From assembly GCF_002934065.1 (NCBI RefSeq), contig NZ_CP018049.1, forward strand, positions 2,726,501 to 2,790,500: a DNA stretch of 64,000 nucleotides, written 5' to 3'. This stretch comes from Pseudomonas orientalis (GTDB lineage: Bacteria > Pseudomonadota > Gammaproteobacteria > Pseudomonadales > Pseudomonadaceae). This document shows, piece after piece, positions 43,860-62,022 of this stretch; within the stretch, counting starts at the first letter, position 1, and each line of letters begins with the position of its first letter. The notes under the pieces are model-generated. The model was not told where the DNA came from, made no database searches, and worked only from the letters and a program-made list of their open reading frames with translations. Made by a program: the position numbers and the translations under genes.

Positions 43860-44855
43860 CTAGCGTCCGCCTCGCAGATCTAGGCGGTCTAGCTCCTCAA
43901 GAGTTTGGACAACGACCTCGACAAGTTCCCCGTCAAAGTCATCGCGGTCTGCCTCCTCATGAGTGCCTTTGTTCAGGTAGGTCCAGACAAGATTATTGAC
44001 TGGAATACCCAAAATGCGGCTATACGCAGCAAGAAGTGGCTCTCTGTTCGCATGGTGGAACATCTGGGCATCTCCCAATTTCTTGACCAACGCTTCGCAT
44101 AGATTTCTCAACGCAGGCTCGGCACCGACGCCAGCCAACATCAGATTCAACACGCCTTGGCCATGACTTCCAAGCCACCGCCAAACTTTCTCGCTCAGCA
44201 TCTCCAAGGCTTGGCGAGAAGCAGCGAGCGCATCTCGGTCGTTGAGCGCTTCCCTTGCTGCCCTGGCCTTGGCAATGTAATTCGCGCTCGGTACGTTGCC
44301 GGTAAGCTATCAGCGCTGCATCTCCCTTTGACTGGCGAAGAAAAGATCGAAATCAGCTTCCGGGGAAACCCTGGGGTCCGCGTCGATGCGCTCGACGTTC
44401 TGAGCGAGGGGCATATACGCTGTCTCGGCCTTCGCACAATGCCAGCCAGCGTTCGTTGCATTCCTGGCGCACGGCCCGGTTAAAACCGTCAGGGTCGTTA
44501 TCTACCAGCCAAGAGACCTCGTCGAGGTCGGCGTTGAACAGGCATGGGGCGCCATCAAAATCGCGCGCGAGCAGTTGGCCGAACCACAGCACCGCCCCTT
44601 GCAACTGGCGACAGTAGGTTGCGCCCGGGTCGTCCGCCCGCTCAGTAAAAAAGGCCGCCAACTGCGTCAGGCGCGCCAGTGCCGCCTGGGAGGGGGCGCA
44701 CAAGCCCTCGGTGCCGGCATCGCCGAACACCCGCTGGGTGGTGTTTGCGCGGGTAGTTCGCTGGTGGCCAGTAGGACCTGCCACAGTGTCGGCAGGCAGT
44801 TTCTGACGCTGGCGACTTCAATAGCCAGTGTGTCGCAGTCCTGCTCCGTTTGCAT
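43860..44855 (-). pseudogene. Decayed ATPase-like gene
   Basis: Protein-like sequence can be followed from ATG 44855 (MQTEQDCDTLAIEVASVRN) to a stop at 43860, but only by changing frame near 44745 and near 44440 and by reading through two adjacent stops (TGA TAG, 44312-44307). The C-terminal part (WTYLNKGTHEEADRDDFDGE) resembles, from memory, the C-terminal region of large AAA/SMC-like ATPases found in bacterial defence loci. The Walker motifs are absent, so only the C-terminal third or so of such a protein is left. It is divergent from the HD-GHKL gene. Confidence 0.55.
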
Positions 44856-45017
44856 ATACAGCCAGGCGCGGTTGCCTGTGGTGACGGACTTGTGTGATGC
44901 GGCAGCCCACCTACGAGCTATATGCCAATGCGCCATTATGCAGATAAAGTAGCGCTTTTGGATCCAGAGGCTGTAAGCGCCTGGGTTGCAAGACGACAGA
45001 CCGGAGAGCGATGTTTC

Positions 45018-48000: not shown

Positions 48001-48053
48001 TCAACCTCGACGTGATGGCATGCTCGGACGCCTGGCAAAAAGCCCGCTGCTAG
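45018..48053 (+). CDS. Large HD-domain plus Hsp90-like (GHKL) ATPase protein
   Basis: 1011 residues from ATG 45018 (GGAGAG 9 bases upstream; an upstream in-frame ATG at 44922 lacks a site). Residues about 35-280 form an HD-type metal-dependent phosphohydrolase-like domain: H50/H54 (SRHDESHSK), H88-D89 (YWHDIGM) and a later acidic run (GDLLDLDDNR). Residues about 370-600 form a GHKL ATPase: N-box ELLQNAVDAT (near 382), DKGTGIT (near 450) and GAFGIGLHSAF (near 491), as in Hsp90, MORC and related bacterial proteins. The last 400 residues match nothing known to me. GC content drops in the second half. Such N-terminal HD fusions occur in defence islands, which is the setting here. Confidence 0.8.
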   Translation: MADLLVKHLKEKAGKHSALSLLASQWDFDKKLIPKALQSIGGLFPHYSRHDESHSKQILINIERLLGDNIRLLSATDTWLILEAAYWHDIGMVVPHADLQKAIAEPGFAAYIDGICAQPYHELNAIARAFKSRSDTGLIFDCESPVEMLGKLRELLAEWFRRQHADRAAEIVRSPMTSIGLSSPRTELIPARLIRVLGRICQMHGAAFKDLLAPEGLPFREAGLGKDDCHPRFVACLLRMGDLLDLDDNRFCPVMQGIAGEHRPALSKAHEDKHAGMRHLRLDPERIELVAECETVDGYMEAFKWFSWLEEEVSNQRNNWRDIVPSRKLGLLPMLGPITVRLKGNLQILKDGVRPAFSLDSEKVTELLEGKNLYGSKYACIRELLQNAVDATLLKVWLTHRNDPALDWKQPGCEKLKTVFNAHAVTVTLEELDTEQDADSALTTWQLRIRDKGTGITRNDLEFMLSIGGSQRNQQRQREIWQMPEWAKPSGAFGIGLHSAFILCNEINVRTKNVVNNEIFDIVMHKPSGPNRGLVLLRKLPEDIAEPYGTEMTLRFKLDAFTQHWWSDGEDRDTVAARIARKRDPLLDESFPYEAGKLFDKVVEFANDPLIKIDGTLVTKGGRFDIADVYAGGKSGKAEGWRFIDMKDTQLKIRYKPLPVATQQEEETFYAAYRGQHFDTDSISFPLVNVEVNLVSGGAGTWLDFNRDTLSKKAREAFRRAVLEALYHTVEFDLAQGLKEQLFKQLDCTKIDYSIFLKEMEAYYGPRWGVLSEKFRDTWQGFRPGRQPATIEQFYSRPTWKLWVEDYYVDAVDHLESLRILPYEFEAMGDLIFREWLKVPGHSISAKVIYCPPSEHYRDMIGLEDGSTIGRIYFQFATDYQEPLDKESLAYFLNKALHSSGGNSRYYMNPGKAFERLSLRADVDLRLFNLAEHDLSQDRVLVPLLFVGSNDYGPAEVRFDDEQLQRICQWTEGKLKQPMTREEMREAYQSLADFINLDVMACSDAWQKARC

Positions 48054-48137
48054 TGTCCTGTCTCGGAAATACGTTCACTTTTGGCGAGCGCCCAATTCGC
48101 CGTCAAAAGTGAACAGCTTATTTTCGAGCCAGACACT
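48052..48137. repeat. 86-bp palindromic MITE-like sequence at the gene end
   Basis: AGTGTC at 48052-48057 pairs with GACACT at 48132-48137, and inside GTTCACTTTTG (48073-48083) pairs perfectly with CAAAAGTGAAC (48104-48114). The left end overlaps the stop codon of the HD-GHKL gene and the right end touches the target TA of the IS630 copy. Confidence 0.6.
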
Positions 48138-48139
48138 TA

Positions 48140-49319
48140 GTGTGGTGTTTCAGAAGTAACGCTGAAAATTTGGACTAGGCTCTGTAGAAACCCACTCATC
48201 AAGAGTTGTGTATCGACATGGGCCGACCAGCGACTGTCATTACCCTATCTGAAACTGAAAATGCGGAGCTGCTACGTCGGGTCAAACTCCGTAAAGGCCC
48301 CAGGATGCACGTCTGCGGGCCGAAATAGTCCTCGCTTGTGCAGCCGGCGAATCTGGCAATGACATTGCACAGCGCTTGGGTACCAGCAAGGATGTCGTAT
48401 CGCGGTGGCGGCAGCGTTTCGCTAAGTTGGGATTGTTGGGTTTGAACGATGAGCCGCGCTCTGGCCGGCCACGCACGATTTCGGATGAGCAGGTTCAACA
48501 AGTAGTAAATCAGATATTGCAAGGTAAGCCCGACGACTCCAGTCACTGGAGTACGCGCCGCATGAGCCGCGAGACGGGCCTTTCTCCTGCCAGCATCATG
48601 CGTATCAGCACGCGTTCGGGATCAAGCCGCATCTGGAAAAAACCTTCAAGCTCTCCACCGATCCGTTGTTTGTCGACAAGGTCCACGACATCCTTGGGCT
48701 GTACTTGAATCCGCCCGAGAGAGCCTTGGTGCTATGCGTTGATGAGAAGAGTGAGATTCAAGCCTTGAACCACACGCAACCTGGTTTACCCCTATCGCCG
48801 GGCAACCCTGCAACTCGCACGCACGATTACAAACGACACGGTACGACCTCTCTGTTCGCTGCTCTAGATGTAGCAACCGGTGAGGTCATCGGCCGCTTGA
48901 GGCGTCAACATCGCAGCATAGAGTTTCTTGCCTTTCTGAAAGAGATCGATGCGTCGGTACCTGCTGAAATGCCGATTCATCTGATCATGGATAACTACGC
49001 AACGCACAAGACCGACAAAGTCAGAGCCTGGCTTGCGGCGCTTCCACGCTACAACATCCACTTCACACCGACGTCGGCCTCGTGGCTGAATTTGGTCGAG
49101 CGCTTTTTCTCAACGCTGAGCGAGAAATGGATCAAGCGGCAAGCACACGTTAGCGTCAAAGATCTAGAAGCTTCGATTGAGTATTACCTGGAAACGTACA
49201 ACCAGAATCCGAAGCCGTTTCGGTGGCATAAGAAGGCAGAAGATATTCTCGCCTCAGTCGCTCGTGCAGCACGAGCGCTAGGCAAGTGATTTTTCAGTGG
49301 TACTTCTGAAACACCACAC
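48140..49319 (+). mobile_element. IS630-family insertion sequence
   Basis: 1180 bp between TA dinucleotides (48138-48139 and 49320-49321), the standard IS630/mariner target duplication. The ends are inverted repeats starting GTGTGGTGTTTCAGAAGTA, about 27 of 31 bases matching. The right-hand TA is the one inside the CTA stop of the internal attachment-like repeat, so the insertion is exactly at that junction. Confidence 0.88.
48218..49289 (+). pseudogene. IS630 transposase, two frameshifts
   Basis: The protein starts MGRPATVITLSETENAELLR, then needs a change of frame near 48300 to read DIAQRLGTSKDVVSRWRQRF (helix-turn-helix), and another near 48605 to read the catalytic DDE domain: [13 protein letters not shown] (first Asp), [11 protein letters not shown] (second Asp) and [15 protein letters not shown] (Glu). 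Some IS630 members use one programmed frameshift; two separate one-base losses make decay more likely here. Confidence 0.82.
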
Positions 49320-49460
49320 TAGAGACTCTCAGGCAAGCCGAAGAACATTTTGACATGGCTCTAGGACGGTTATTTAAGGTCGAAAAAAAAGAGTTGTGCC
49401 CCCATTTGTGCCCCCACTTGCATCGGCTGTGCTAGCGATCGTGAATGGCGATTCCTGATA
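49319..49460. repeat. Internal attachment-like repeat and second left end
   Basis: 49319-49348 read on the minus strand encodes MFFGLPESL and a stop, one residue different from the LysR end. The following about 110 bp (TTTGACATGGCTCTAGGACG, then two GTGCCCCCA-type motifs and GCGATCGTGAATGGCGAT) parallels the sequence just inside the left end of the island (43452-43560, e.g. TTTGACTTGGCTCTAGGACG). Thus both elements begin with the same left terminus. Confidence 0.7.
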
Positions 49461-49617
49461 AACACCAGTGTGGCTTTGGCTAGCTTTCAGTGTGCGCCCT
49501 GAAGTCAGTATTTAATGTTCTTGTGACAGTCCTCATCCTGCTTCGGCGTTGCGTTGCAGTATTTTTATGCTGCAATGCGTCGGCAGCAGCCCGGCGAGTT
49601 CCCAGGAGACCTATTCG

Positions 49618-49768
49618 TGTCGGCGCTGATGCGATTTTGACCCAGGTTGCTGATTTTGACTGACCCACACGCAGCCTCCGAAATCACCCGCAAGGTAATC
49701 ATTTCTTGAGTACTCGGGTGGGTCAATGAATTCCGGTAGCCTGCGTCAAAATCGCATCAGCGCCAACA
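49618..49768. repeat. 151-bp inverted-repeat element, copy 1
   Basis: Begins TGTCGGCGCTGATGCGATTT and ends with the reverse complement of nearly the same sequence (24-bp inverted repeat, one mismatch). A second internal pair (CTGACCCAC and GTGGGTCA) and a partial tandem of the end motif (TGATGCGATTTTGAC, then TGCTGATTTTGAC) are present. Identical over all 151 bp to copy 2 at 56963. No coding capacity; it is probably a MITE or deletion derivative of an IS with multiple end repeats. Confidence 0.8.
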
Positions 49769-49950
49769 GGCAGTCCTTCATCCGCGGCATGCAGCCCGAG
49801 AAAGTCCTGAGCAAGGAAGAGCGCGAGCAGATACGCAAGGACAAGAAACGTATCCAGCAGCTTGAGAGCGAACTTCATCGCAAAGAGAAGGCGCTGGCAG
49901 AAACAGCCGTGTTGCTGGTGCTGCTAAAAAAGCTCAACGACTACTGGGGG
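49769..49950 (+). pseudogene. Transposase OrfA fragment
   Basis: The frame reads KVLSKEEREQIRKDKKRIQQ, then LESELHRKEKALAETAVLLV and LKKLNDYWG, the coiled-coil/leucine-zipper C-terminal part of an IS3-type OrfA. It is cut on the left by the 151-bp element and on the right by an IS66 fragment. Confidence 0.6.
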
Positions 49951-49959
49951 ATCCCCGGG

Positions 49960-50115
49960 GGGAATACCAAGGTGGTAGGGGTGCCCACTCATGCGCGCCG
50001 ACTGGATCAGGCTCATGATCGCCGCCGCCCGTTTACCACTGCGCAGTGATCCTGCGAAGAGCCAGTTCGAAGACCCAAGCGCCCATGGCCTGATTGTGTT
50101 TTCGACCTGGTTGAA
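49960..50115 (-). pseudogene. IS66 transposase (TnpC) C-terminal fragment
   Basis: Minus-strand reading gives QVENTIRPWALGSSNWLFAG followed by SLRSGKRAAAIMSLIQSARM, the conserved C-terminal part of IS66 TnpC. Both ends are truncated. Confidence 0.75.
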
Positions 50116-50133
50116 TGCCGTTGAGTCAATACA

Positions 50134-50345
50134 CTAGGTGCCCAGGTCGATCAGACCTTGAGTGTTGAGTTTGACGTGTAGGCGCTTGAGCATCTTGTCG
50201 AAGATGCCCTGGCTACACCAGTGTCTAAACCGCTGATAAACAGTAGACCAAGGGCCGTATCGCTCAGGCATGACTCGCCAGGTCGCACCGGAGCAAAACA
50301 TCCAGAACACGCCATTGAGCATCTGTTAGTCATCGGCTTGTGGAG
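50134..50345 (-). pseudogene. IS5-type transposase N-terminal fragment
   Basis: Minus-strand frame with MLNGVFWMFCSGATWRVMPE and RYGPWSTVYQRFRHWCSQG, the N-terminal domain of IS5-family transposases. It stops at 50134 after LNTQGLIDLGT; the catalytic part is gone. Confidence 0.75.
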
Positions 50346-50508
50346 GACGATTCGGAGAGGCGCGCGCTGATTGTACTGGTACACTGTCAACAGAAAGCTA
50401 TGTGTTCCGTTGTGCGAGAGTGAGAGTCCAAAGCGGCTATCATGAAATGCTCAATGAGTCAGTTGAAACTTGTGTAAACTGAAGAGGCACGCACTGGAAG
50501 GGGGACAG

Positions 50509-51831
50509 ATGTTTTTAGTACGAGTTGCACTTCATGATGTACGCTCAATAAAGTCTATCGAGCTTGACTTTCGATCGCCTAGAAGTAAAGCAAGGCGTTG
50601 GACTCTTTTGTTGGGTGAAAACGGGTGCGGAAAGAGCTCTGTGCTACGTGCTATCGCATTACTGCTTTCCGGGAGTGATGCTTTGCCAGAGCTTTTGGGG
50701 GAGCCAGACATCTGGATCCGTAATGGTGCCAAAAAGTGCAGAATTGAAGGCACATTAGTTACCGCGAAAGGTGAGGTTCGTGAAATTGCTTTAGAGATTC
50801 ACCGAGGTGATGGAATTCGAAGTATTTTCAATCGGAATCATGCGTCTCTAGAGGCGTTGGATAATGCCTTGTTTAAGGCAGAGCGAAATTATTTTGTGCT
50901 CGGTTACGGCGTTTCACGAAGACCAACTTTGGCAAATTCTAGATCAACTTTTCCTGAGGAGCGATCACGTAATCCTCGCGCCCAAGGCTTGGCTACTATG
51001 TTTTCTCCTGACGCCTCGCTTATATCCTTGGAGCAATGGGCAATGGATCTTGACTATCGCAAAGGTAGAAAATCAATTGGTGCGGTGAGCCAGGCATTGA
51101 ATCAACTCCTTCCAGGTATGGAATTTGCGCGTATTGATAGAGACCTGAGGCAAATTATTTTTAAAACTGTAGACGGTGAAGTACCTTTGAGTCAGCTATC
51201 TGATGGATATCAGAACATGGCTGCGTGGTGCGGGGATCTTCTTTTTAGAGTGACTGAAGCTTTTCCCGATCGGAAAGATCCCCTGCTAGCTCGGGGGGTG
51301 TTGCTCATTGATGAGCTGGATTTGCATCTCCATCCAGTGTGGCGTCGTCGTCTGGTGGATTTTCTCTCCACGACGTTGCCAAATTTCCAGTTCATTGCTA
51401 CGACACACTCAGCGTTGACAGCTCAACAAAGCGGGGAAGGTGAACTCTATGTGATTCGTCGAGACGGGCAAACCAATGCCCCCTGTTTGGTTCCGTTCCA
51501 GGGTGAACCTCGAAAAATGATGCTGCACCAGTTGCTAATGAGCCCCATGTTCGGATTGGAAACTTTGGATTCCGTGGAGGTGGAAAAAGCCCGCACTGTG
51601 GTTCGGGAACTGAGTGCCAGATCCGCCCCCTTAAGCACTGTCGAGCAACAACAGCTTCATCGAATGGAAAAGGTTCTGAAGGATGCTCCGGATTGGGATG
51701 TGATCCCTGAGTACGCGTTGGCTCAAAAAAAACTTCTGGATCAAATAAGCTCGTCTATCAGTCGTGGCAAAAAGCGTCCCTCTGTGTCTGCCTCAAAAAT
51801 ACGGGCGGTTGTTAAAAGCCTGGAGGGCTAG
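50509..51831 (+). CDS. Septu PtuA-like ATPase
   Basis: 440 residues from ATG 50509 (GAAGGGGGA upstream). Walker A GENGCGKSS at residues 36-44, a Q-loop-like region, signature LSDGYQNMA, Walker B GVLLIDELDLHLHP and H-loop TTHSALTA mark an OLD/RecF/SMC-type ABC ATPase. Paired with an HNH nuclease gene 2 bp downstream, it matches the Septu (PtuA-PtuB) arrangement, which is also the effector of retron Ec78. There is no reverse transcriptase gene here. PtuA is thought to sense infection or nucleotide level and release the nuclease. Confidence 0.78.
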   Translation: MFLVRVALHDVRSIKSIELDFRSPRSKARRWTLLLGENGCGKSSVLRAIALLLSGSDALPELLGEPDIWIRNGAKKCRIEGTLVTAKGEVREIALEIHRGDGIRSIFNRNHASLEALDNALFKAERNYFVLGYGVSRRPTLANSRSTFPEERSRNPRAQGLATMFSPDASLISLEQWAMDLDYRKGRKSIGAVSQALNQLLPGMEFARIDRDLRQIIFKTVDGEVPLSQLSDGYQNMAAWCGDLLFRVTEAFPDRKDPLLARGVLLIDELDLHLHPVWRRRLVDFLSTTLPNFQFIATTHSALTAQQSGEGELYVIRRDGQTNAPCLVPFQGEPRKMMLHQLLMSPMFGLETLDSVEVEKARTVVRELSARSAPLSTVEQQQLHRMEKVLKDAPDWDVIPEYALAQKKLLDQISSSISRGKKRPSVSASKIRAVVKSLEG

Positions 51832-51833
51832 GG

Positions 51834-52676
51834 ATGATTAAAATTGTCCGCATTAGAACCAGAAAAGGACTAGAAGGTTATACGGGGTCATACCTCCAGA
51901 AAAAATTGAGCAAGTTACTGGGTTATTATTATTCGGATGGCGCTACTGGGAAAGTAAGTTTTAAGTTCAAGAACCGTCAGGTTTGGCGTAAGGCCAAGCC
52001 GCAATTAAAAAAAGAGTCTCACAGTAAATGTGCATATTGTGAGGCGGATACAGCGGTTGTAGCTCATGGTGATGTCGAGCATTTTCGGCCGAAAAGTGAG
52101 TATTGGTGGTTGGCTTATTGTTATGATAACTATACGTTCAGCTGTCAGGTGTGCAATCAGGTCTATAAGGGGGATAATTTTTTTGTTTCCGGGCCTAAAC
52201 TTCCCTCTCCAGTAGTTCCGACTATTTTGCCAACTGACTCTAATGCGCTTGCCCAGTTGATAAAAAGTCTTTGTCCTGATCCGGTGACTTCGAGTGATCT
52301 AGATGTGTCTGGGTTGTTTTTGGTCGAAGATGCGAATCTTCTAAATCCCTACTTGAACGATCCGGAGCTGGACTTTTCGTGGGACCCGAAGCCGGCCACA
52401 AAGGAAGTATGGTTGGTATCAAACTCTACTGCTAGATCAACTAGGGTAGTGGATGCAGCTGTTGATATGTTGGGGCTGAATAGAGAAGAGTTACTAAGGC
52501 TCAGGTGGAATGCGTATTATGAGCTTGAAACTTTAGCGCTTGTTTTTCAGGGTGCAAACTTTACTGTTGAAAAAAGAAAAGATCTGCTGGCGCGTGTTCG
52601 ATTGCATGCTTCGGACGATAAGCCGTTTGCTGGGATGAAACGCTATTTTTTGAGAGAGTGGGGGTTGCTTGATTGA
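51834..52676 (+). CDS. Septu PtuB-like HNH endonuclease
   Basis: 280 residues, start 2 bp after the PtuA-like stop. The HNH/zinc part shows CAYCEAD (near 69), DVEHFRPKS (near 81, catalytic His) and CQVCNQVYKGDNF (near 104), in the order C-x2-C, H, C-x2-C with Asn. GC content is much lower than the chromosome average, as usual for horizontally acquired defence genes. It probably degrades nucleic acid (DNA or tRNA) when released by the ATPase. Confidence 0.78.
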   Translation: MIKIVRIRTRKGLEGYTGSYLQKKLSKLLGYYYSDGATGKVSFKFKNRQVWRKAKPQLKKESHSKCAYCEADTAVVAHGDVEHFRPKSEYWWLAYCYDNYTFSCQVCNQVYKGDNFFVSGPKLPSPVVPTILPTDSNALAQLIKSLCPDPVTSSDLDVSGLFLVEDANLLNPYLNDPELDFSWDPKPATKEVWLVSNSTARSTRVVDAAVDMLGLNREELLRLRWNAYYELETLALVFQGANFTVEKRKDLLARVRLHASDDKPFAGMKRYFLREWGLLD

Positions 52677-52741
52677 TGTCTCTATTTAGCGTCAAGGCCA
52701 GGTGCCCCCTGGGTTCTGGCTAATTCGCACCCAGCAATGAT

Positions 52742-53710
52742 TTACCGATTGCGTTGTAGCGGTGCGATGAGAAGGCCCCAAAGCGTCTCGGCACCGCCTT
52801 CTTGGGAAAGCTTCTGGTCTTGCCGAGTGTGGAACGCCATGCCGAAGGTCTTCAGGTACATGGATTGGTCGTCCGTATTTACGGTGAGCGCCTCGTTGTA
52901 CGAGCCGCCGCCAAACGAGTCTCCATGGCTGTAGTAGATACCGGCGCCCATCTGGCCGCCGGTAAACACTGCCGCTTTTGCAACGTCGTGGCCGTCCTTG
53001 TAGATATTCGCAGAAAAGCGATTTGCATCTATCCGACGGAACACCCCTTCATACCCTGAGTTGCGCGCTTGGAGCTCCAGCAACGAGTTCTCGAAATAGC
53101 GGGCGATGTACTCGAAGCTGTCGAGCAAGAAGCGGTCTTTGTCCAGCTGGGTGAAGCTCTTAGCCATTCGAAGGTTACTCGACCTAGGGCCAGCCGGGGC
53201 GATAAGGGAGGGCGCTGAACCTCCATTGAAATCGTTGCGTTCAGCTCGCGGAGCAGTGTTCGGTTGGCCACGGCTGCGTCGCTCGGCGGCCTTCCGAACC
53301 TCCTTCGCAACCTGCAAAAATGCTTCGTCCCGATCAGGCCAAAGGGTCACTGGCTTACCATCTTGGGGCGTACCAAGCAGCTTGCCGAAGGGGGCATGAT
53401 GCCAATCGCATGGGCGAAGAATCACAGGAATGACAGTCGCTTCTTTAGCGGCATGGCGCTCCATCGCGCGAGCCATCTCGATGTTGTAGCAATAGTCGGA
53501 AGCGATGAAATCGGGGCTTACCAGCAACAGGATAATTTCGTCGCTGTTGATGTGATCATCAATGGCAACATCGATCTCTTGACCTGCTCCGATTCTGCGG
53601 TCGTGCCAAGTCTCAATGACGCCTTGGCGCTTGAGCATCGAAAGCTGCTTTTCCAGCTGGTCGCGCAGCGCCTCGTCAGCATGGCAATAAGAAAAGAACA
53701 CGTTCGGCAA
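52742..53710 (-). CDS. TIR-domain protein with a C-terminal unknown domain
   Basis: 322 residues from TTG 53710 (AGGAG upstream; the open frame continues to 53920 but no start fits). N-terminal TIR domain at residues about 1-130: NVFFSYCHADEALRDQLEKQ, WHDRRIGAGQEID, ILLLVSPDFIASDYC and the putative catalytic Glu in YNIEMARAMER. TIR enzymes cleave NAD+ or make cyclic ADP-ribose signals. The last about 140 residues (from MAKSFTQLDKDRFLLDSFEY) form a separate domain with a Gly-rich stretch (GGQMGAGIYYSHGDSFGGG) that I cannot assign; it may be the sensor or ligand-binding part. Confidence 0.75.
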   Translation of the reverse strand: MPNVFFSYCHADEALRDQLEKQLSMLKRQGVIETWHDRRIGAGQEIDVAIDDHINSDEIILLLVSPDFIASDYCYNIEMARAMERHAAKEATVIPVILRPCDWHHAPFGKLLGTPQDGKPVTLWPDRDEAFLQVAKEVRKAAERRSRGQPNTAPRAERNDFNGGSAPSLIAPAGPRSSNLRMAKSFTQLDKDRFLLDSFEYIARYFENSLLELQARNSGYEGVFRRIDANRFSANIYKDGHDVAKAAVFTGGQMGAGIYYSHGDSFGGGSYNEALTVNTDDQSMYLKTFGMAFHTRQDQKLSQEGGAETLWGLLIAPLQRNR

Positions 53711-53823
53711 AAGGGTCACTCCTACTCGGATAGGTGCGATGTCAATCTTACGGGCAGCTTGGCTGCGAAGTACAGACGTGGGCTTGGTTTGACTGCTGAT
53801 TGGATGCCCTTCAGTTGAACCTG

Positions 53824-54411
53824 TTAGCCAAAAAACAACGGTGCTCGAGTCGTGACATGGTCGTAGATCGTTTTGGCTCGCTCGTAATGAATGATGTGCT
53901 TGCCGTGAGGCGTTGGCCACACGAACTGACGGATCTCAAGTGGCGCAAATGTAAAGGAATGTGGAAGGCCTAGGCGTCTCTTAACCGTGCCGTCAGCACT
54001 GTTGCATTGCTCGCAGATGATGACGGGAGCAAATGTGGTGATCCGATGAGGTTCTCCAGGAAGCGGTTTTCGTACGTAAGGGTCGGTTCCATGGTCATGG
54101 TGAGTATGGAGACCTACAGCCCAGCCTTCTCGCCTGTGCGGTTTGTTCGGGTAAAGCATCGTCCAACGTAGCAATTGGTATCGTGTCCGTTCGCAGCACG
54201 GGCATCGCCAATGATCATCAAGCTTCGCCCATAGCTGGTGGCAATGGGCGCCATCAAAGCTCAGGTATTCCTCCCAGCTAGGAATGCGCCGGAGCAGATT
54301 GCTATTCAGCGTTTTCTCTCTGTTAGCATTCTTGATTTTGGTACCGTCGCAGGCCAAAAAGTAGCCATTGGCCGAAAACTCGGGCTTGCAGGGACAGAGG
54401 TTTTTGGTCAT
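53824..54411 (-). CDS. HNH-type zinc-binding nuclease candidate
   Basis: 195 residues. Zinc and HNH-like features: C70-P-C72-C73 in RCPCCERTRYQ, LHTHHDHG (102-108) and CEQCNSADGTVKRRLGL (133-149), with a closing APLEIRQFV phrase typical for HNH proteins (the family often has LSPEEIRxFI). It lies upstream of the TIR gene in the same direction, 113 bp apart, which suggests a joint function. Confidence 0.65.
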   Translation of the reverse strand: MTKNLCPCKPEFSANGYFLACDGTKIKNANREKTLNSNLLRRIPSWEEYLSFDGAHCHQLWAKLDDHWRCPCCERTRYQLLRWTMLYPNKPHRREGWAVGLHTHHDHGTDPYVRKPLPGEPHRITTFAPVIICEQCNSADGTVKRRLGLPHSFTFAPLEIRQFVWPTPHGKHIIHYERAKTIYDHVTTRAPLFFG

Positions 54412-54625
54412 CAGAGCTTCTCAGTCTGTCGTTGGGTTAACCCACGTGATGACCGCGCGCCAGGCATTTGTGCTGGAGTTGCTAGCAGCCACCATCATTT
54501 GTAGCTACTAACGGTATGCGGGTCTCATCTGTCCACGCAAGGCCAATGCAGAACATCAGGGTCAAGGAGGCGTAGTTGATCACTGCATGTACTCCTCCTG
54601 CACTCACGTCATCAACTGCTCGGTA
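54412..54625. other. Intergenic stretch in the right element
   Basis: 214 bp with no recognised gene; expected to hold the promoter of the HNH and TIR genes on the minus strand. Confidence 0.35.
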
Positions 54626-54946
54626 TCACCATACAAGCAGATCACCAATCATCGCCCCCAACGCAGCCCTACAGGCAGTCAGCAAGCTACCTCCTACGTT
54701 GATGAAGAACGTGTGCACTTCCCGCGACCTTCCAATGAGGTGAAAGGATCGAAACGTCACCCTAAGCGTGAAGATGCTGACGATAGCGAATGCTATGAGC
54801 AGGTACACGTAGTAAGCCATGAGCTCGGGGGGCAGTAGCGCGGTCACCAAAACGCTCACCTCTTCTGGTGAGGTGTTCAGGAGTGGCAGTGACCCGATGA
54901 AGAACGCATAAATCACCCTCCCTCGATGCCCGCTGCCAGAATCCAA
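54626..54946 (-). CDS. Small membrane protein of unknown function
   Basis: 106 residues from TTG 54946 (AGGA five bases upstream) or about 96 from GTG 54916 (next to GGGAGG). Three hydrophobic stretches, residues about 10-25, 30-62 and 78-106, separated by a basic loop (RVTFRSFHLIGRSRE). No family was recognised. Between a SIR2 gene and an HNH/TIR pair it could be a membrane effector, but this is only position-based. Confidence 0.4.
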   Translation of the reverse strand: MDSGSGHRGRVIYAFFIGSLPLLNTSPEEVSVLVTALLPPELMAYYVYLLIAFAIVSIFTLRVTFRSFHLIGRSREVHTFFINVGGSLLTACRAALGAMIGDLLVW

Positions 54947-55023
54947 ACTTGTCCTAGGTTTTCAGCAGCAAACGCATGTACCCCATTTGAATCGTATTTG
55001 CATTAATTGGAATGCGTGAGGCG

Positions 55024-56799
55024 TCAGTACCTGGACAGCCGCTTCAGTCCTTCAAGCATTTGCTCCAGGTAGCTTTGCGACCCAAGTGCGAACCCTGCTG
55101 CCAGCAGCGGGGCCCTGTACTCTTCGGCCGCATATTCGTGAGCGAAGCGGTTGATGGTCTCTGAATGCCAGGAAAGCCGGCCCAATGCGATTCTCTTGAA
55201 ATCGTGGTTTTTCACCGCATCCGCGAGCGATTCTTCACTGACTCCGCGTTGCTCGCATAAGAACAGGAAACTGAAAAACTCAAACCGTTCGTAAAGCAGC
55301 CCGTGATCCTGCAGACCTGCGAAGTCAGGCGCCCACCGAGGCGCAAGACGGTCATGGAGTCGGTTGCACAAGGGGGTAAGAGCTCTACTTTGGTCTTCGA
55401 AGCTCCTCCATAATTCAAGCAGGCCATTGGCTCGCTCAACGTAGAACGGTGATAGATCAACTCCCACAGGGGAAGGCATTTCGCGCCGGTTGATAAGGGT
55501 CGTGTTAAACAGCTCGTTTAGCTCGCTCAGGCGATTGGCCCGTACAAGTCCCATGCCATACGCATAGGTAACAAGTGCTATCGGGTAACTCTTCAATGCA
55601 AGTCCAGCTACCCAGCCTGACTGCTCGACCTGAGACGCAGTGTGCAGGCCCTTGATCGCATCCAAAACGATCGAATGCTCAACACCTGCACCCCATCGCC
55701 CTAACACTGCACAAAGGCGTGCTAGTGGCTCGATGGCCGCTTCGTATATCTCAACCAGATCGGTAAAGTCCTTGGACGTGCTGCCCTGAGGTCGTTCTGT
55801 GAATAGAGGAGCCAGATGGCTGATCGCTTGATGAGCCTGGCTTGTCACTAAATCATCGAGCTGAATCCTGTGTTCGGGTCTGGCCATAAAGCGTTTGGCC
55901 ATAGCGAGAGTCAGCTCGATGCCGGCTGGGTTCTGCAGGCGGGATTGCTGGATGGTTTCCAGTTTGAGGTTCAGCCCATCGAAGAAGGTGTCGGCATCCA
56001 GGCCCGTCACGACGTTGGCGCGCCGCTGAGTGATGAGCTCTTGGCCACGCTCGCTCAATTTTCCTCGCGAAAGCCAGTAGGTCGGGTAGCGACGGGAGGG
56101 CGCCCTCAAAAACGCCGCCCTCAGCGCATGATCCCACTCACCTGACCAGCCCGCGACGATCAGCCCAAACTCATCGATGATGCGGTCAAGCAACGTATTG
56201 AACGCTGGCGGATACTTCCCCAGCTCCCCATCGGTATTGAGGATCCTGGCATCCTTGTAATCACCATGGATCTTCAGGATGTAGCAGGACGCATGAGTGA
56301 GTGGCTCCGCTCCTCCGAGGGTGTCTTCTGAGCTGACGACAGTTGGCTCAACGCCGACATCGCGCAGTGCATTTTCCATGAGTCGGTCGAAGTTCGTCGT
56401 GATGATCACGCGCACATAACCCGCTTTGACCATCGCAGCGATCGCTCGATGTGCGGGGGTAGGCAGTTTAAGGCCATCCTCTAACTCGTCTTCGCTAGGT
56501 TCCAGAAAGCCTTGAATGATCGCTCGCCGTTCAGTCTGGGTTGTCGCCAGGCGTTCGAGCAACGTGGAGTAATTGGGCTGCTCTCCTGTTTGACCTACGT
56601 ACCACGCGAGCCAATCTTCCTGTTCGCCGGCACCAGACACTATGCCCCATCGTTTCACCAGCTCCATGGTGATTTCCCAGCCGGTCGGTATTCCCGCCGA
56701 GCGTGATACCCCCGAGCCAAGAAGCACTGCGTAGACGCCTTTGTTTTCAAACATTGAAAACGCGATTTGAGCTGTTGAATCACTGATGGCAGCAGTCAT
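55024..56799 (-). CDS. SIR2-domain defence protein (putative NADase)
   Basis: 591 residues from ATG 56799 (AGGA six bases upstream; an ATG two codons earlier is too near). SIR2 domain at residues about 15-270: LLGSGVSRSAGIPTG (26-40, NAD-binding), TTNFDRL (134-140, with N136 and D138) and LKIHGDY (175-181; putative catalytic H178). There is no zinc-ribbon with four Cys, which separates it from deacetylase sirtuins and fits the SIR2 NADases used in abortive infection. The C-terminal 320 residues are helical and unassigned. It is a single-gene unit 216 bp from the small membrane protein gene on the same strand. Confidence 0.8.
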   Translation of the reverse strand: MTAAISDSTAQIAFSMFENKGVYAVLLGSGVSRSAGIPTGWEITMELVKRWGIVSGAGEQEDWLAWYVGQTGEQPNYSTLLERLATTQTERRAIIQGFLEPSEDELEDGLKLPTPAHRAIAAMVKAGYVRVIITTNFDRLMENALRDVGVEPTVVSSEDTLGGAEPLTHASCYILKIHGDYKDARILNTDGELGKYPPAFNTLLDRIIDEFGLIVAGWSGEWDHALRAAFLRAPSRRYPTYWLSRGKLSERGQELITQRRANVVTGLDADTFFDGLNLKLETIQQSRLQNPAGIELTLAMAKRFMARPEHRIQLDDLVTSQAHQAISHLAPLFTERPQGSTSKDFTDLVEIYEAAIEPLARLCAVLGRWGAGVEHSIVLDAIKGLHTASQVEQSGWVAGLALKSYPIALVTYAYGMGLVRANRLSELNELFNTTLINRREMPSPVGVDLSPFYVERANGLLELWRSFEDQSRALTPLCNRLHDRLAPRWAPDFAGLQDHGLLYERFEFFSFLFLCEQRGVSEESLADAVKNHDFKRIALGRLSWHSETINRFAHEYAAEEYRAPLLAAGFALGSQSYLEQMLEGLKRLSRY

Positions 56800-56962
56800 G
56801 CACATTCCTAAATTTCAGCGGGGAGGTGAGGTTTCTGCGCGAGCATCGGCTTATCTAAGAGTAGTCAGATCCGTGTCGGTCGGTGGCAGCGACGGTGGCT
56901 GGTGACGACTTGCTGCATCTCCAGCCAATCGACCTATTTGCGGTGCAAGATAGGCCCATGAT
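56800..56962. other. Intergenic region upstream of the SIR2 gene
   Basis: 163 bp that should contain the SIR2 promoter; nothing else seen before the 151-bp element begins. Confidence 0.35.
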
Positions 56963-57113
56963 TGTCGGCGCTGATGCGATTTTGACCCAGGTTGCTGATT
57001 TTGACTGACCCACACGCAGCCTCCGAAATCACCCGCAAGGTAATCATTTCTTGAGTACTCGGGTGGGTCAATGAATTCCGGTAGCCTGCGTCAAAATCGC
57101 ATCAGCGCCAACA
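56963..57113. repeat. 151-bp inverted-repeat element, copy 2
   Basis: Identical to copy 1 at 49618-49768 in all 151 positions and in the same orientation. It ends 2 bp before the stop codon of hxsA. No clear target duplication is seen at either copy. Confidence 0.8.
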
Positions 57114-57115
57114 AC

Positions 57116-57724
57116 TTATGGAATCTTGATACCCAACGCATTCAGCGATGCCGTATCCATCCGGCCATTCACGGTCAGCCCGCTGTCCATCTGAAAAGCC
57201 ATTAACGCACCACGTGTCGCCTTGCCCATCACACCATCAATGGTGCCTTGGTAATACTGGCGCACCATCAGTGCGGTCTGCACACGGGTGACCAGGTTGC
57301 TTTTCTGCTCATTGGTCGCGCGGTTCTTTGAAGTGCTCGAACTTATCCCGCTGGTAGTGCCAGACGACTGATAAAGGCTGTTGCTGCTTGAGGTGCTGCT
57401 CGAAGAGCTCGGCGCGCTGTAGCTTCGGGTACTGGCAGCGGGTGGGCTGTAGTAGCGAGGTGCGCTATAGCCACCCGAGCCGCTGTAGTGAGAACTATGC
57501 GAGCTGTGGGACCGGTGTGAACTGTGCGAGCGATGTGCCGCATAGATGTTGACGGTGTCTGGCGCATTGAGCGTATCGGCAAATACCGGGGGCTGTAGCT
57601 TGTCGTTGGGTTGCCAGTTCGCATCGGCGAGCGACAGATGGCCCGCCTGTGCCAGGGTGGTACCTGCCATTGGCAGCAAGCTGATCCCACTGATCAGGAC
57701 TTTCCAGCGGTCGAGCAATTTCAC
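57116..57724 (-). CDS. hxsA: His-Xaa-Ser repeat protein HxsA
   Basis: 202 residues. A signal peptide (cleavage near TTLAQA, residue about 26) is followed by six uninterrupted His-Xaa-Ser triplets at residues 64-81 (HRS, HSS, HRS, HSS, HSS, HYS), then a Ser/Tyr/Pro-rich linker, and a C-terminal peptidoglycan-binding-type domain (residues about 143-200: RVQTALMVRQYYQGTIDGVM, GKATRGALMAFQ, LNALGI). This is the layout of HxsA. It is the likely substrate of the two radical SAM enzymes encoded just upstream. Its ATG overlaps the hxsC stop (ATGA). Confidence 0.88.
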   Translation of the reverse strand: MKLLDRWKVLISGISLLPMAGTTLAQAGHLSLADANWQPNDKLQPPVFADTLNAPDTVNIYAAHRSHSSHRSHSSHSSHYSGSGGYSAPRYYSPPAASTRSYSAPSSSSSTSSSNSLYQSSGTTSGISSSTSKNRATNEQKSNLVTRVQTALMVRQYYQGTIDGVMGKATRGALMAFQMDSGLTVNGRMDTASLNALGIKIP

Positions 57725-58956
57725 TGTGCGCTCCCTGCATAGGCGCTAAAGGCCTCGGTCGATAGTAGTTGTACGCCGCGGCTCTGCCAGCGGTCGGTTT
57801 GGGATTTGAAGAAGCCAGAGCAATGTTTGACGGCAGCGCATTGTTGGCAGGTATCGATGAACAGATTCTTCCAGTCCGAGATGCTCTGGCGGGCGAAACG
57901 CGAGAGGTGGGCCGGGATCAGGCACAGGGGCAAGTTGTAGATCGAAACCGGCACTCCGCGGTTAAAAAGGAAATACACGGCCTGGCTCAACGACTCTTGA
58001 TAGTCCAGCGGGTCAACCCATAGTTCTTCGTAGTTCTTCCTGGCGAGGCCGGTACTTTCGATACCCATTAGCGCAACATGCCGCACGAAGGGCAAGTTCC
58101 TGAACACGTAGTGGGCGAGCTCGGGCAAGCGTGGCGTGGTCAGGCGATTGAGCACCACGCGTATCTCGATGATCTGGTTGGCCCGCGCTAGGTTGTAAAG
58201 ACCTTGCAGGGTTTCGCTGAACGCGCCTGGAGCCTGCACCACATGGTCATGGTCTTCGGCATTGTCAGCATACAGCGGGATGCCCCAGCTCAACTGAGGG
58301 TGGCCGATGGCAGAGAGCGCTGCGATCCAGCTCGGGTCTTGGAACAGACGCCCGTTGCTGAGCACATGAATAGATTTCTGCGGCAAAACGGCTCTGCACT
58401 TGGCCAGGATTTCGAGCAGACCGTCGCGATAAAGCGTTGGTTCTCCGCCGCTGATTCCCAGATTTTCCTCGCCCGGGTCCATCAGGTCGATCAGCCGTAG
58501 GTTCTCCTCGATGTGCCAACGGTCATCGATATCTTTGGGCGGCTGCGAGCACATCAGACAGAGGCTGTTGCAACGATCGGTCATGAACAGCAGGTTGTTG
58601 TCTGAGCTTCGTCGATAGAGCACTCGCACCATCGCGTTGCCTGGTGTGATGGCAATGACATCGCCGGGCTGCACGACATTCGCATCTTTAGGGGTGTGCA
58701 GGTGTGGCCGCGCGCTGTCGAAGTCGCCGATCAATGGCTCCGGGATCAGGAATCCACCCACTGGTAATGAGAGCAGATGCGGGCTCCGTAGCCGTTCTTC
58801 GTTTGGCAGCCAAAGCAGCAGGTCACCGAACTCAGCGCTTCCAGCACAAACAGCCAGGCCTTGTTCGATGAACTCATCCAGAGTGATGACCTTGAGCAGT
58901 TTCGGCTCATTCAGGTGAAGGATTTCGAAGTGGGTATCTTTGCGCAGCATCGCCAT
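57721..58956 (-). CDS. hxsC: Radical SAM protein HxsC
   Basis: 411 residues from ATG 58956, which shares a base with the hxsB stop (TGATG); an in-frame extension to 59049 lies inside hxsB and is not used. The radical SAM cluster motif is C129-x3-C133-x2-C136 (CNSLCLMC), followed by NLGISGGEPTLYRDG-like GGEP. A C-terminal CQQCAAVKHC suggests a second Fe-S site. Radical SAM enzymes of this type modify peptide side chains. It is the third gene of the hxsDBCA operon. Confidence 0.85.
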   Translation of the reverse strand: MAMLRKDTHFEILHLNEPKLLKVITLDEFIEQGLAVCAGSAEFGDLLLWLPNEERLRSPHLLSLPVGGFLIPEPLIGDFDSARPHLHTPKDANVVQPGDVIAITPGNAMVRVLYRRSSDNNLLFMTDRCNSLCLMCSQPPKDIDDRWHIEENLRLIDLMDPGEENLGISGGEPTLYRDGLLEILAKCRAVLPQKSIHVLSNGRLFQDPSWIAALSAIGHPQLSWGIPLYADNAEDHDHVVQAPGAFSETLQGLYNLARANQIIEIRVVLNRLTTPRLPELAHYVFRNLPFVRHVALMGIESTGLARKNYEELWVDPLDYQESLSQAVYFLFNRGVPVSIYNLPLCLIPAHLSRFARQSISDWKNLFIDTCQQCAAVKHCSGFFKSQTDRWQSRGVQLLSTEAFSAYAGSAQ

Positions 58957-60458
58957 CAGCCCCTGTAACCCGGGAACCGGACATCGTTGTAAGAGCGCCT
59001 GTTCAACCAAGACAGCAGCACCCTCTGCACGTTGTCGTCGCCATCGCAAAGCAGGCCGAAAAGATGCTTCAGCAGCCCCATGTTCTTCTTGCAGAAGCTG
59101 CTGAACACTCGGTGTCCGATCGGGTCAGCTTGGCGGGCATAGTGTTCGACGGGGTCAGCACCACAGTACGGGACAAGTGCGCAATCGGAGCATCCCGGCA
59201 GCGCCTCTGCTACACCACTGGCGAGCAACGCATTCATAACGGGCGATGCGAGTAATTCAGACAAGGGTTGCTGCACGGTGCCGAGCCTCAAGCCGTCTTC
59301 ACCCATCTCCAGCAACATTCGGGCTTCGTCCGAGGGATAGACGTCACCGTCATAGTTGTAGACCAGCGCCGCAGTGCCTGCGCCAGCGGGGGAGCGCAGG
59401 TCTACATAGCCGGAGGAGAAGGGTGTCAGGATATTCTTCAGCAACAAGCTCGCATAACTCTCTGAGAGGTATACGCCCTGTTGGTTGATATGCAGCAAAT
59501 AGGCCAGTGCCTTCTTGTAGAAGGCCAGGTATCGCTCAATAGGGTAATCAAGTCGATGGGCACTCTTGGTGGCAAATCCATAAGGGCTCAGAGGCCGAAG
59601 TGAGATGCTGGAGAAGCCCTGGCTTACATACTCATCGATGATCGCTTCAGGTTGTTCGAGGCTTCTTGAAGTCAGCGTGGTCAGCGCGGAAACTGCATCA
59701 TGGCCAAGGCGCTCACGGACCCACTGGATGCCTTTTACAGTGCGTTCGTAGGAGTCTCGTGACGGGGTAGGGCGGTTGGCATTGTGCAAGGGCGCCGGCC
59801 CATCGAGCGAGGTCGAAAACTGGATGCGATTTTGTTCTGCGAAGTCGAGTATTTCCTCCGTCAGGTGGTGCAGCGTGGTGGTAATGACGAACTGGATATC
59901 CCGTTGTTCGACCACGTTCCGTTCAACGACCCATTCGACAATCTGGCGGACGCGCTCGAAGGCCAGAAGCGGTTCGCCACCCTGAAACTCCACAGTCAGG
60001 GCGGGAGCGTTCGATTCGAACAGGCGATCGACCGCCGCCTGTGCATCCGCTTCCGACAGGTCGTGGCCGGATCCGCCCAGAGGGGCCCGCGACACCTGGC
60101 AGTACTGGCAGGTGTGGTTGCAGCGCAATGTAACCACGAACAAGTGCAGTGCAGGGCCCTGGAAGAGGAAGTCTTTGCGGCTGCGATACTGCGCGGCCAT
60201 TTCCGGGAACGGGTCGTGGCGACCTGGTTCGTAGATGAAGTGGCGGGCCAGCAGGTCCTTGTAAAAAGGCGTACTTGCTTGAACGTCGAAGTAACTGAGG
60301 GCTCGTAATTGCGCGTCGTTCACGTGCATGTACTCACCGGTATCGGAGGTGAGTAGGATGTCACGGTCTTGTCCCGTGTTCATGCGCATGAATCGAAAAG
60401 GCAGCAAGCGGTAGTGCTTGGCGTCTGTCGCAATCAGTGTCACTGGGAAATCCCACAT
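58956..60458 (-). CDS. hxsB: Radical SAM/SPASM protein HxsB
   Basis: 500 residues from ATG 60458; a GTG at 60443 would give a GTGA overlap with hxsD and an equally good protein (MTLIATDAKHYRLLPFRF). The radical SAM motif is C113-x3-C117-x2-C120 (CNHTCQYC), then VEFQGGEPLLAF. The C-terminal SPASM-like region has CSDCALVPYC and a later Cys (SSFCKKN). SPASM enzymes such as PqqE and AlbA modify ribosomally made peptides. In one SPASM position (DGDVYPSDEARML) a Ser replaces the usual Cys. Confidence 0.87.
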   Translation of the reverse strand: MWDFPVTLIATDAKHYRLLPFRFMRMNTGQDRDILLTSDTGEYMHVNDAQLRALSYFDVQASTPFYKDLLARHFIYEPGRHDPFPEMAAQYRSRKDFLFQGPALHLFVVTLRCNHTCQYCQVSRAPLGGSGHDLSEADAQAAVDRLFESNAPALTVEFQGGEPLLAFERVRQIVEWVVERNVVEQRDIQFVITTTLHHLTEEILDFAEQNRIQFSTSLDGPAPLHNANRPTPSRDSYERTVKGIQWVRERLGHDAVSALTTLTSRSLEQPEAIIDEYVSQGFSSISLRPLSPYGFATKSAHRLDYPIERYLAFYKKALAYLLHINQQGVYLSESYASLLLKNILTPFSSGYVDLRSPAGAGTAALVYNYDGDVYPSDEARMLLEMGEDGLRLGTVQQPLSELLASPVMNALLASGVAEALPGCSDCALVPYCGADPVEHYARQADPIGHRVFSSFCKKNMGLLKHLFGLLCDGDDNVQRVLLSWLNRRSYNDVRFPGYRG

Positions 60459-60739
60459 CCAGCGAGCGCGGCTCGGGCCAGGATTTCACGTAACCCTGCT
60501 GTTTCGCGGTTGATATGGTCGCGCAGGGCGAAGTCGTTCAGGTGCTGGAGGATCAGTGAGTGAGCCTGCTCCGGGGAAAGCGTTAACCTTGCTTCAGCGG
60601 GGTGGGCCGTGAGGCTAATTTGATTGGCTTCAATACCGATCTGGATTGCGACAGTGTCGGCCAGTGAATAAGCGGCGCGTTGCACCACGCTGAGCGGGTA
60701 GGCTGAGATATCGAGCTTCAGCGTGACTGGCCATGTCAT
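60440..60739 (-). CDS. hxsD: HXS-system small protein HxsD
   Basis: 99 residues, first gene of the operon, with AAGGAG nine bases before ATG 60739. Its start (PVTLKLDISAYPLSVVQRAA, YSLADTVAIQI) has strand-helix pattern without Cys motifs, typical for HxsD. It overlaps hxsB by 4 or 19 bases depending on the hxsB start. It may present the substrate to the radical SAM enzymes, like RiPP recognition elements do; that is inference. Confidence 0.78.
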   Translation of the reverse strand: MTWPVTLKLDISAYPLSVVQRAAYSLADTVAIQIGIEANQISLTAHPAEARLTLSPEQAHSLILQHLNDFALRDHINRETAGLREILARAALAGCGISQ

Positions 60740-61064
60740 CGGAACCGCTCCTTAAAATCCGTTGGGAACGTATGGATATTGCCGCTTTCCGAGGCATTAT
60801 GCCATCATAATTTTTTACATTTGCACGCATCTATTCAGTGTGAATGCGAAGAATCATCAAATGTTCATCGGCTGCATGTTCACCGTTTCGCTGAAAATCT
60901 CAGGCCGGTATAGCAACTCGCAGAGAGTCCGGTCAGACCTATCCTCATCAATAGCCTGCTTGGCCTTAGGTTGGGGGCATCCTTTTCAAACCATCCAACG
61001 CATGCCCTCAGATGTGCCCCCAATGTAGCAATCCACCGGAAATGAATGGAGCTCCATGGTTTGT
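60740..61064. other. Right end of island: hxs promoter region and terminal sequence
   Basis: No gene is certain in 325 bp. AT-rich sequence at 60795-60820 may hold the hxs promoter. A minus-strand frame (about 60859-60984, containing KQAIDEDRSDRTLCELLYRP) looks protein-like but has no start. One GTGCCCCCA motif (61009-61022 area) recalls the motifs at the two left ends. Confidence 0.4.
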
Positions 61065-61137
61065 GGAAAGGCAGAAATGATCAGCCGAACAGCCTGCCAG
61101 ACGACGTCTAAAGACTCTCAGGGTCGCCAAAAAACAT
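61065..61137. repeat. Right attachment-like repeat (attR) including the LysR 3' end
   Basis: Partner of 43379-43451. 61108-61137 is the real 3' end of the LysR gene on the minus strand (MFFGDPESL and stop). Confidence 0.75.
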
Positions 61138-62022
61138 CTGAATTCGCGACCTCAACCACCGCTCCCCCGGATCATTATCCTGCGACCCGCGCCAGGCCAT
61201 GTGCAGTTCGAACGAGCGTACCGGCAGCGGCGGGTCTTCGGCGCGCAGGCCACCGGCCGAGGTCAGCGCGTCGGCTGCGTAATCGGGCACGGTGGCGAGG
61301 ATATCGGTGCCTGCCAGTAGGGTCCCCAGGCCGTTGAACTGCGGAACGGCCAGCACCACGTGGCGTTTGCGCCCGAGTTTTTCCAGTTCTTCGTCGATAA
61401 AACCGCTCAGGTCACCGGCGAACGACACCAAGGCATGGGGTCTTGCGCAGAAGTCGTCCAGGCTCAAGGAGCCGGGCACGCTGTCGGCGCGCAGCAGTTT
61501 GGGCAGGCTGCGGCGCAGTACCTTGCGCTTGGCGTTGGCCGGCAGGTCGGCGGTGTAGCTGACGCCGATGGAAATCTCGCCAGAAGCCAGCAGGCCGGGC
61601 ATCAGGATGTAGTTGACGCGACGCACCACCAGCACGATGCCAGGGGCTTCGGCGCGCAGGCGTTTGAGCAGTTGCGGCAGCAGCGCGAATTCCACGTCGT
61701 CGGACAGGCCGATGCGGAACACCGCGTTGCTGGTGGCCGGGTCGAACTCGGCGGCGCGGCTGACGGCGGTGGAGATCGAGTCCAGCGCCGGGGAGAGCAG
61801 GGCGAAGATTTCCACGGCGCGGGCCGTCGGCTCCATGCTACGTCCAGTGCGTACGAACAACGGGTCGTCAAACAGCCCGCGCAGGCGTGACAGGGCCGCG
61901 CTGATGGCTGGCTGGCCGAGAAACAGTTTCTCGGCGGCGCGGGTCACACTGCGCTCGTGCATCAAGGTTTCGAATACGATCAAGAGGTTAAGGTCGACAC
62001 GACGCAGGTCGTTACGGTTCAT
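61108..62022 (-). CDS. LysR-type regulator; integration target of the island
   Basis: 304 residues. Helix-turn-helix at residues about 5-65 (LNLLIVFETLMHERSVTRAA; LGQPAISAALSRLRGLFDD), then a substrate-binding domain of the NahR/LinR-NodD-like group. The gene is intact: insertion restored the last codons. It is divergent from the quinone oxidoreductase gene, its likely target. Confidence 0.88.
   Translation of the reverse strand: MNRNDLRRVDLNLLIVFETLMHERSVTRAAEKLFLGQPAISAALSRLRGLFDDPLFVRTGRSMEPTARAVEIFALLSPALDSISTAVSRAAEFDPATSNAVFRIGLSDDVEFALLPQLLKRLRAEAPGIVLVVRRVNYILMPGLLASGEISIGVSYTADLPANAKRKVLRRSLPKLLRADSVPGSLSLDDFCARPHALVSFAGDLSGFIDEELEKLGRKRHVVLAVPQFNGLGTLLAGTDILATVPDYAADALTSAGGLRAEDPPLPVRSFELHMAWRGSQDNDPGERWLRSRIQMFFGDPESL

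Follow-up and report, generated by a model that had tools for sequence, protein, structure and literature searches.

How did a complete His-Xaa-Ser (HXS) radical S-adenosylmethionine (SAM) operon come to lie among bacterial defense genes, and what does it make? The question is raised by a stretch of 64,000 nucleotides from Pseudomonas orientalis (contig NZ_CP018049.1, positions 2,726,501 to 2,790,500 of the forward strand), here called the window, in which hxsD, hxsB, hxsC and hxsA stand beside SIR2, TIR and Septu genes. The best overall explanation, to which we give about an even chance, is a selected HXS maturation operon with cross-linking chemistry that forms the cargo of a genomic island, similar to a cis-mobilizable element (CIME) and inserted at a lysR 3′ end.

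A complete HXS operon

The hxs locus is a regular and complete member of the known, uncharacterized HXS system. Its four genes are all intact and all on the minus strand, in the order hxsD (60440..60739; a small protein of 99 amino acids, aa), hxsB (58956..60458; radical SAM maturase, 500 aa), hxsC (57721..58956; radical SAM maturase, 411 aa) and hxsA (57116..57724; the substrate, 202 aa). With the curated NCBIfam cut-offs of the models TIGR03976-TIGR03979 as the threshold for HXS identity, HxsD scored 72.4 bits against a cut-off of 50 (TIGR03976), HxsB 571.4 against 370 (TIGR03978), HxsC 385.2 against 267.9 (TIGR03977) and HxsA 251.6 against 121.65 (TIGR03979). An initial annotation, made from the DNA letters alone, had described a full four-gene hxsDBCA locus with every junction overlapping and had proposed a search with these models; the search confirms it, all four proteins lying above the cut-offs. 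The overlaps measure 19, 1 and 4 bp and the coordinates agree, the sole correction being the start of hxsC, which is the ATG within a TGATG that overlaps the hxsB stop and not an upstream TTG. In comparison with a relative that shares about 83% of its DNA sequence, all four genes gave dN/dS values of 0.05-0.08, from which we infer that the operon is under selection and kept functional.

The HxsA protein consists of a Sec-type signal peptide, the HxS repeats and a peptidoglycan-binding domain (residues 143-197; 57134..57298, minus strand; PF01471, E 3.7e-12), as the earlier description of a secreted protein with six triplets had it. The six tandem His-Xaa-Ser triplets (HRS HSS HRS HSS HSS HYS; 57482..57535, minus strand) form the run HRSHSSHRSHSSHSSHYS. 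Six tandem triplets were reached by none of 100,000 composition-preserving shuffles, the best of which gave three.

The HXS system, defined by TIGR03976-TIGR03979, is attributed to Haft and Basu as cited in PMC9062424. The window locus shares its compact operon, its HxS repeat substrate and its paired radical SAM enzymes and has no defining difference from it, the particulars here being the peptidoglycan-binding HxsA and the D-B-C-A gene order. No report on HXS chemistry or role was found in the open-access literature (subscription papers lay outside the search), in agreement with the earlier statement that neither modification nor purpose is established. HXS is thus a widespread orphan radical SAM system; the family has long been known, and what is new here is the mode of arrival of hxs.

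Tandem elements inserted at the lysR 3′ end

The integration site is the 3′ end of lysR (61108..62022, minus strand), a core Pseudomonas gene with a strong match in all 200 of the Pseudomonas genomes compared, one per species. This 3′ end recurs 17.7 kb off, at 43,422, where zero copies are expected by chance. The lysR-proximal attachment (att) repeat occupies 61065..61137 (minus strand; recognized as direct repeat D3, from the empty site of genome G188 and by its nhmmer family), and the distal copy occupies 43379..43451 (minus strand; no copies expected by chance). In G188 (LysR identity 100% by the listed score), the sequence found from window position 43,451 onward comes immediately after lysR, with 96.7% identity over 7 kb. 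This uninterrupted site proves that 43,451-61,065 of the window is one insertion, with a 73-bp duplication.

The insertion is made up of two tandem elements with conserved ends. The first, E1 (49344..61137), has the lysR-proximal repeat as its left end, carries hxsDBCA with the SIR2, TIR and Septu genes, and has the right end TAGAGCCATGTCAAAATGTT (49344..49363, minus strand). The second, E2 (43447..49340), carries an HD-CE/HATPase protein and an IS630-type transposon, and has the right end TAGAGCCAAGTCAAAATGTT (43447..43466, minus strand). Neither holds an integrase among the matches listed. The 110-bp left end extends to at least query position 98 in about 47 of the 200 genomes, often in tandem copies, and the right end TAGAGCCnAGTCAAAATGTT precedes most downstream att copies. 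E2 matches, at 98.8% identity over 6.1 kb, the module that closes another array, in genome G166; lysR and most of E1 are 94.6% identical to genome G198 over 9.4 kb; modules have therefore been shuffled. The lysR 3′ end is an integration hotspot of Pseudomonas, occupied by a family of mobile elements whose ends, integrase and target can all be tested. The same open-access search returned nothing specific on this hotspot.

Horizontal transfer and proposed mobilization

In species with a lysR 82% identical to that of the window, the hxs genes are 95-98% identical. Between the window strain and Pseudomonas cichorii (locus L036), hxsD is identical and hxsB has a synonymous divergence (dS) of 0.046, far below the dS of 0.72 for the adjacent lysR, which argues that hxs moved recently. 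The step in divergence falls at the attachment site, the intergenic sequence being 99% identical and lysR 82%. Of the 24 genomes of the genus sample in which HxsB exceeded its cut-off, 16 seem to be of the D-B-C-A type, 12 of them with the operon at the lysR att site.

A candidate for the enzyme that moves these elements is a 426-aa Arm-DNA-bind/Phage_integrase protein, present in 19 of the 200 genomes; in at least 16 of the 19 carriers, the distance between it and the 3′ end of the same lysR is about 145 bp. In four genomes (G016, G175, G161 and G170) the traC of an integrative and conjugative element (ICE) lies between the lysR-side integrase and the next att copy. G016 presents on a single contig the order lysR, integrase, traC, then att and the hxs element, the layout to be expected of ICE-CIME accretion. 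A conserved 306-aa tyrosine recombinase some 80-130 kb from lysR had also been considered as a trans-acting enzyme; it proved to be a core syntenic gene and was set aside when the lysR-adjacent integrase was found.

ICE-CIME accretion has been described in Streptococcus (PMC7563491, PMC5704250). The hxs island fits a CIME-like element without an integrase and with hxs as cargo. As in the Streptococcus CIMEs, att sites are kept on both sides, here as direct repeats at a defined target gene; integrase and conjugation genes are absent from the elements, judged by gene content and by the matches listed, among which there was no PF00589 match, and the window's own genome (G000) has neither a lysR-site integrase nor a TIGR03744 traC; and in G016 an ICE stands between target gene and CIME. 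Tandem arrangement with an integrase of an ICE or integrative and mobilizable element at the same att is seen in the four relatives named above, not in the genome of the window. The island would then be mobilized by accretion with an ICE encoding the lysR-site integrase.

Two points weigh against this account. The lysR-site integrase is missing from the window's own genome. The left ends differ between the integrase islands and the satellites, which, together with the target, a Pseudomonas lysR 3′ end, sets the system apart from the Streptococcus CIMEs. It is possible, if on balance unlikely, that the array instead owes its origin to the decay of ICEs resident there, or to homologous recombination of the repeats at the lysR end, leaving satellites that are now immobile. 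CIMEs have indeed been described as decayed elements (PMC7563491, PMC5704250), and the missing relative of the integrase in G000 would suit such a history; against it, many species share units of 4.4-12 kb that have defined ends and stand in differing orders, and in L036 divergence rises abruptly once the att boundary is crossed. Mobilization by accretion remains the reading favored here.

In P. aeruginosa, an ICE of the MPF_G type was reported with a LysR gene on one side and a hypothetical gene on the other (PMC6299553). It likewise has an integrase, P4-like, beside a LysR gene, not necessarily the lysR of the window, and it has no hxs link there.

The HxS repeat across relatives

For comparison, 89 hxs loci were gathered, with gene calls from a simple open reading frame (ORF) caller, and yielded 79 complete operons. 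HXS is distributed over many phyla, and the complete operons fall into two layouts, D-B-C-A (n=45, including that of the window) and A-D-B-C (n=34). HxsA of the first layout has about 200 aa, an internal HxS run and a C-terminal domain. Precursors of the second are mostly short, about 80-130 aa, and in 29 of 34 the HxS run forms the extreme C-terminus. Nearly all the HxsA precursors viewed have a Sec-signal-like N-terminus, and a secreted product therefore appears general for HXS.

Over the 79 operons the run comprises 5-11 triplets in which His and Ser are fixed and X is variable (S 243, R 102, Y 74, A 50, plus nine rarer residues). Fixed ends around a variable middle point to His and Ser together as the probable target of modification, not to His alone or to Tyr. 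The comparison narrows HXS chemistry to these two residues and, with the enzymes described below, supplies a Cys inventory for reconstitution.

Next to hxsC, directly on its 3′ side, four A-D-B-C loci from different phyla have a small methyltransferase-like gene (L081:12787-13254, L082:12571-13095, L087:12576-13205 and L107:9473-10012), possibly an extra tailoring enzyme. A Staphylococcal-nuclease-like gene lies near hxs in three unrelated loci (L082:13208-13756, L083:8214-8942 and L102:4180-4908).

Maturases and proposed chemistry

Both maturases had been described as radical SAM proteins with an intact CxxxCxxC motif; the motif is present in each, and it is conserved across the 79 operons except in one HxsC sequence. 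HxsB has Cys113/117/120 for the SAM cluster plus Cys423/426/432/456, all seven conserved in the 79 operons; HxsC has Cys129/133/136 plus Cys345/370/373/379, the three and the four conserved likewise. With three plus four Cys each, HxsB and HxsC would therefore each hold one auxiliary cluster, probably. The AF2 model of HxsD (pLDDT 92.7) has the order beta-alpha-beta-beta-long alpha, and a fold comparison with the PDB gave no confident match, the best being Pcc1-like (E 0.04). HxsD was considered as a PqqD-type recognition element (RRE) and set aside, its model lacking the beta3-alpha3 winged helix and any convincing solved relative. The strand and helix order of the HxsB N-terminus does fit a PqqD-type RRE, but with a pLDDT of 77 and no significant Foldseek match.

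SPASM-type radical SAM enzymes form rings between residues i and i+2, with Phe-Ser (MscB), His-Ala (HaaB) and His-Arg (YhhB) as examples (PMC11002830). A strict triplet with fixed ends and a free middle is the signature of such three-residue cyclophanes, and it is on these precedents that bonds from His to the Ser beta-carbon are proposed. The HxsA precursor would be synthesized with its Sec signal still attached. While it is in the cytosol, the two enzymes HxsB and HxsC, which each have one radical SAM cluster and probably a single auxiliary cluster, would modify its HxS triplets, probably assisted by HxsD. The most likely outcome would be a bond between the His ring (i) and the Ser beta-carbon (i+2) that closes a three-residue ring, one triplet after another along the run, after which the modified chain would be exported and the peptidoglycan-binding domain would place HxsA at the cell wall. 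By analogy, a His(i)-Ser(i+2) cross-link made by HxsB and HxsC before Sec export is the best mechanism at hand, and the order of steps and the attachment to the wall are likewise proposed.

The triceptide enzymes (MscB/FxsB, HaaB and YhhB; PMC11002830) share with this proposal a motif logic of an aromatic residue at i, a free i+1 and an sp3 carbon at i+2; Phe-x-Ser and His-x-Ala are the precedents nearest to HxS, and SPASM-type radical SAM enzymes are common to both. HXS departs from these systems in using two enzymes together with HxsD and in the single auxiliary Cys set of HxsB, and its cross-link is a proposal.

Other observations count against the cyclophane model. The SPASM domain usually has two auxiliary Cys sets. 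In HxsB only Cys423/426/432/456 are present, and the Cys of the usual first SPASM site is replaced by Ser376 in 77 of 79 operons, so that HxsB may work differently from the known cyclophane-forming SPASM enzymes. Against the cyclophane-forming models YhhB, GrrM, FxsB and AmcB it scored 70, 61, 46 and 46 bits, all far below the cut-offs, and it is no closer to cyclophane-forming than to thioether-forming enzymes (PapB 102 bits, YhhB 70). Given these scores and the different Cys set, HxsB is not classed as a member of the cyclophane enzymes, and the proposal goes no further than that it may act in a similar way.

An incomplete SPASM auxiliary set would also suit a HxsA that is a His-rich metal-binding or redox protein of the wall, in which the radical SAM steps tune His ligands by single-residue modification of His or Ser and make no cross-link. 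Dense His repeats, export and the peptidoglycan-binding domain agree with such a protein, yet Ser is no less fixed than His, the three-residue spacing is strict, and simple metal binding needs neither; we consider this alternative rather improbable. A secreted toxin or bacteriocin-like competition factor of the ribosomally synthesized and post-translationally modified peptide (RiPP) class is suggested by the 29 A-D-B-C operons whose short secreted precursor ends in the HxS run, like a RiPP core. We consider it improbable: no consistent transporter, protease or immunity gene adjoins the operons, and the Pseudomonas run lies inside the protein, tethered to a peptidoglycan-binding domain.

The cross-linking proposal can be taken further, and more tentatively, to an uninterrupted chain of His-to-Ser rings that would form a stiff, exported, peptidoglycan-anchored rod, spread in Pseudomonas by integrase-less satellites accreting onto an ICE at lysR. 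If true, the HxS rod would represent a wall polymer of a new class, built post-translationally.

Defense genes as fellow passengers

The presence of SIR2, TIR and Septu genes beside hxs, noted in the initial annotation, was upheld by PADLOC. Outside the operon lie a SIR2 protein, PDC-S65 (55024..56805, minus strand; E 6e-215), a ThsB-type TIR protein (52742..53719, minus strand; E 4e-179; PF13676) and Septu PtuA/PtuB (50470..52676, plus strand; E 1e-124 and 6e-29). A 162-bp repeat stands directly after hxsA (56952..57113) and again at the far end of the defense block (49607..49768), the copies being 97% identical, and the block is therefore regarded as a separate addition. Both copies carry inverted arms of about 55 bp, resembling a miniature inverted-repeat transposable element, and bracket the SIR2-TIR-Septu block. 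A homology edge at 57114 had been considered as the end of an hxs cassette and was ruled out, since the 162-bp repeat sits there in the window strain.

The role in defense or competition that had been drawn from this position is not supported. The lysR site is a general integration hotspot where hxs occurs alone, as in the 4.4-kb element of L049 in which no other gene was called, or with other cargo, namely a PrlF/YhaV-type toxin-antitoxin pair or a HamB-like helicase (L050). A survey of hxs in defense islands had been proposed at the outset. In the 146 genes flanking 39 hxs loci outside the lysR site, PADLOC found roughly nine systems or more; among 132 random control genes it matched about six to eight, mostly housekeeping. 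These counts are approximate, with 25 of 60 families listed and controls from Pseudomonas only. Strong matches near hxs were only modestly more frequent and more specific than among random genes and did not clearly exceed that control, and the enrichment is weak. The hxs genes did not match a known defense family in PADLOC, the similarity of HxsB to viperin (E 2e-7) being that of radical SAM proteins in general. Because hxs travels on a genomic island, the defense genes are best seen as fellow passengers that give no evidence of a defense function for hxs. An anti-phage or envelope-defense factor, placed among SIR2, TIR and Septu for that reason, has in its favor the defense genes alongside here and in G198, the HamB-like helicase of L050 and the Gabija, AbiU, Tin or PDC genes that some hxs loci elsewhere have at most two genes away, but is very improbable in view of the elements with hxs alone or with just a toxin-antitoxin pair, the block's own delimiting repeat, the PADLOC counts and the weak viperin match.

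As a general rule, the common theme of hxs loci is mobility and not defense. A total of 410 plasmid records carry hxsB, 317 of them from Klebsiella. On one Klebsiella IncFIB/IncFII plasmid (L185, NZ_CP054265.1), hxsDBCA adjoins IS1, catA1 and a class 1 integron, and Leptospira phage LE1 (L186, KF114877.1) carries a complete A-D-B-C operon. Mobility explains the adjacency of hxs and defense genes and warns against inferring function from proximity, and the hxs-only element of L049 is a natural minimal unit. The core defense hotspots cDHS1/2 of P. aeruginosa (PMC10250203) are similar in being fixed chromosomal sites with variable defense cargo; they differ in their flanking genes, and the lysR site is accounted for by one family of elements that have their ends in common.

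Other features of the insertion

The SIR2 (PDC-S65) and ThsB-type TIR genes (52742-56805) are conserved as a pair in G198, separated by a 106-aa ORF; they may form a Thoeris-like system whose SIR2 effector is unusual. In E2, a 1043-aa protein (44922-48053) with HD-CE and HSP90-like ATPase domains (PF24391, PF13589) resembles predicted conflict-system proteins and had no PADLOC match at E 1e-5. The adjacent IS630-type transposon (48138-49321) has 31-bp inverted repeats and a DDE_3 transposase split over two ORFs; it is inserted in the CTAG of an attachment repeat, an arrangement also found in G166.

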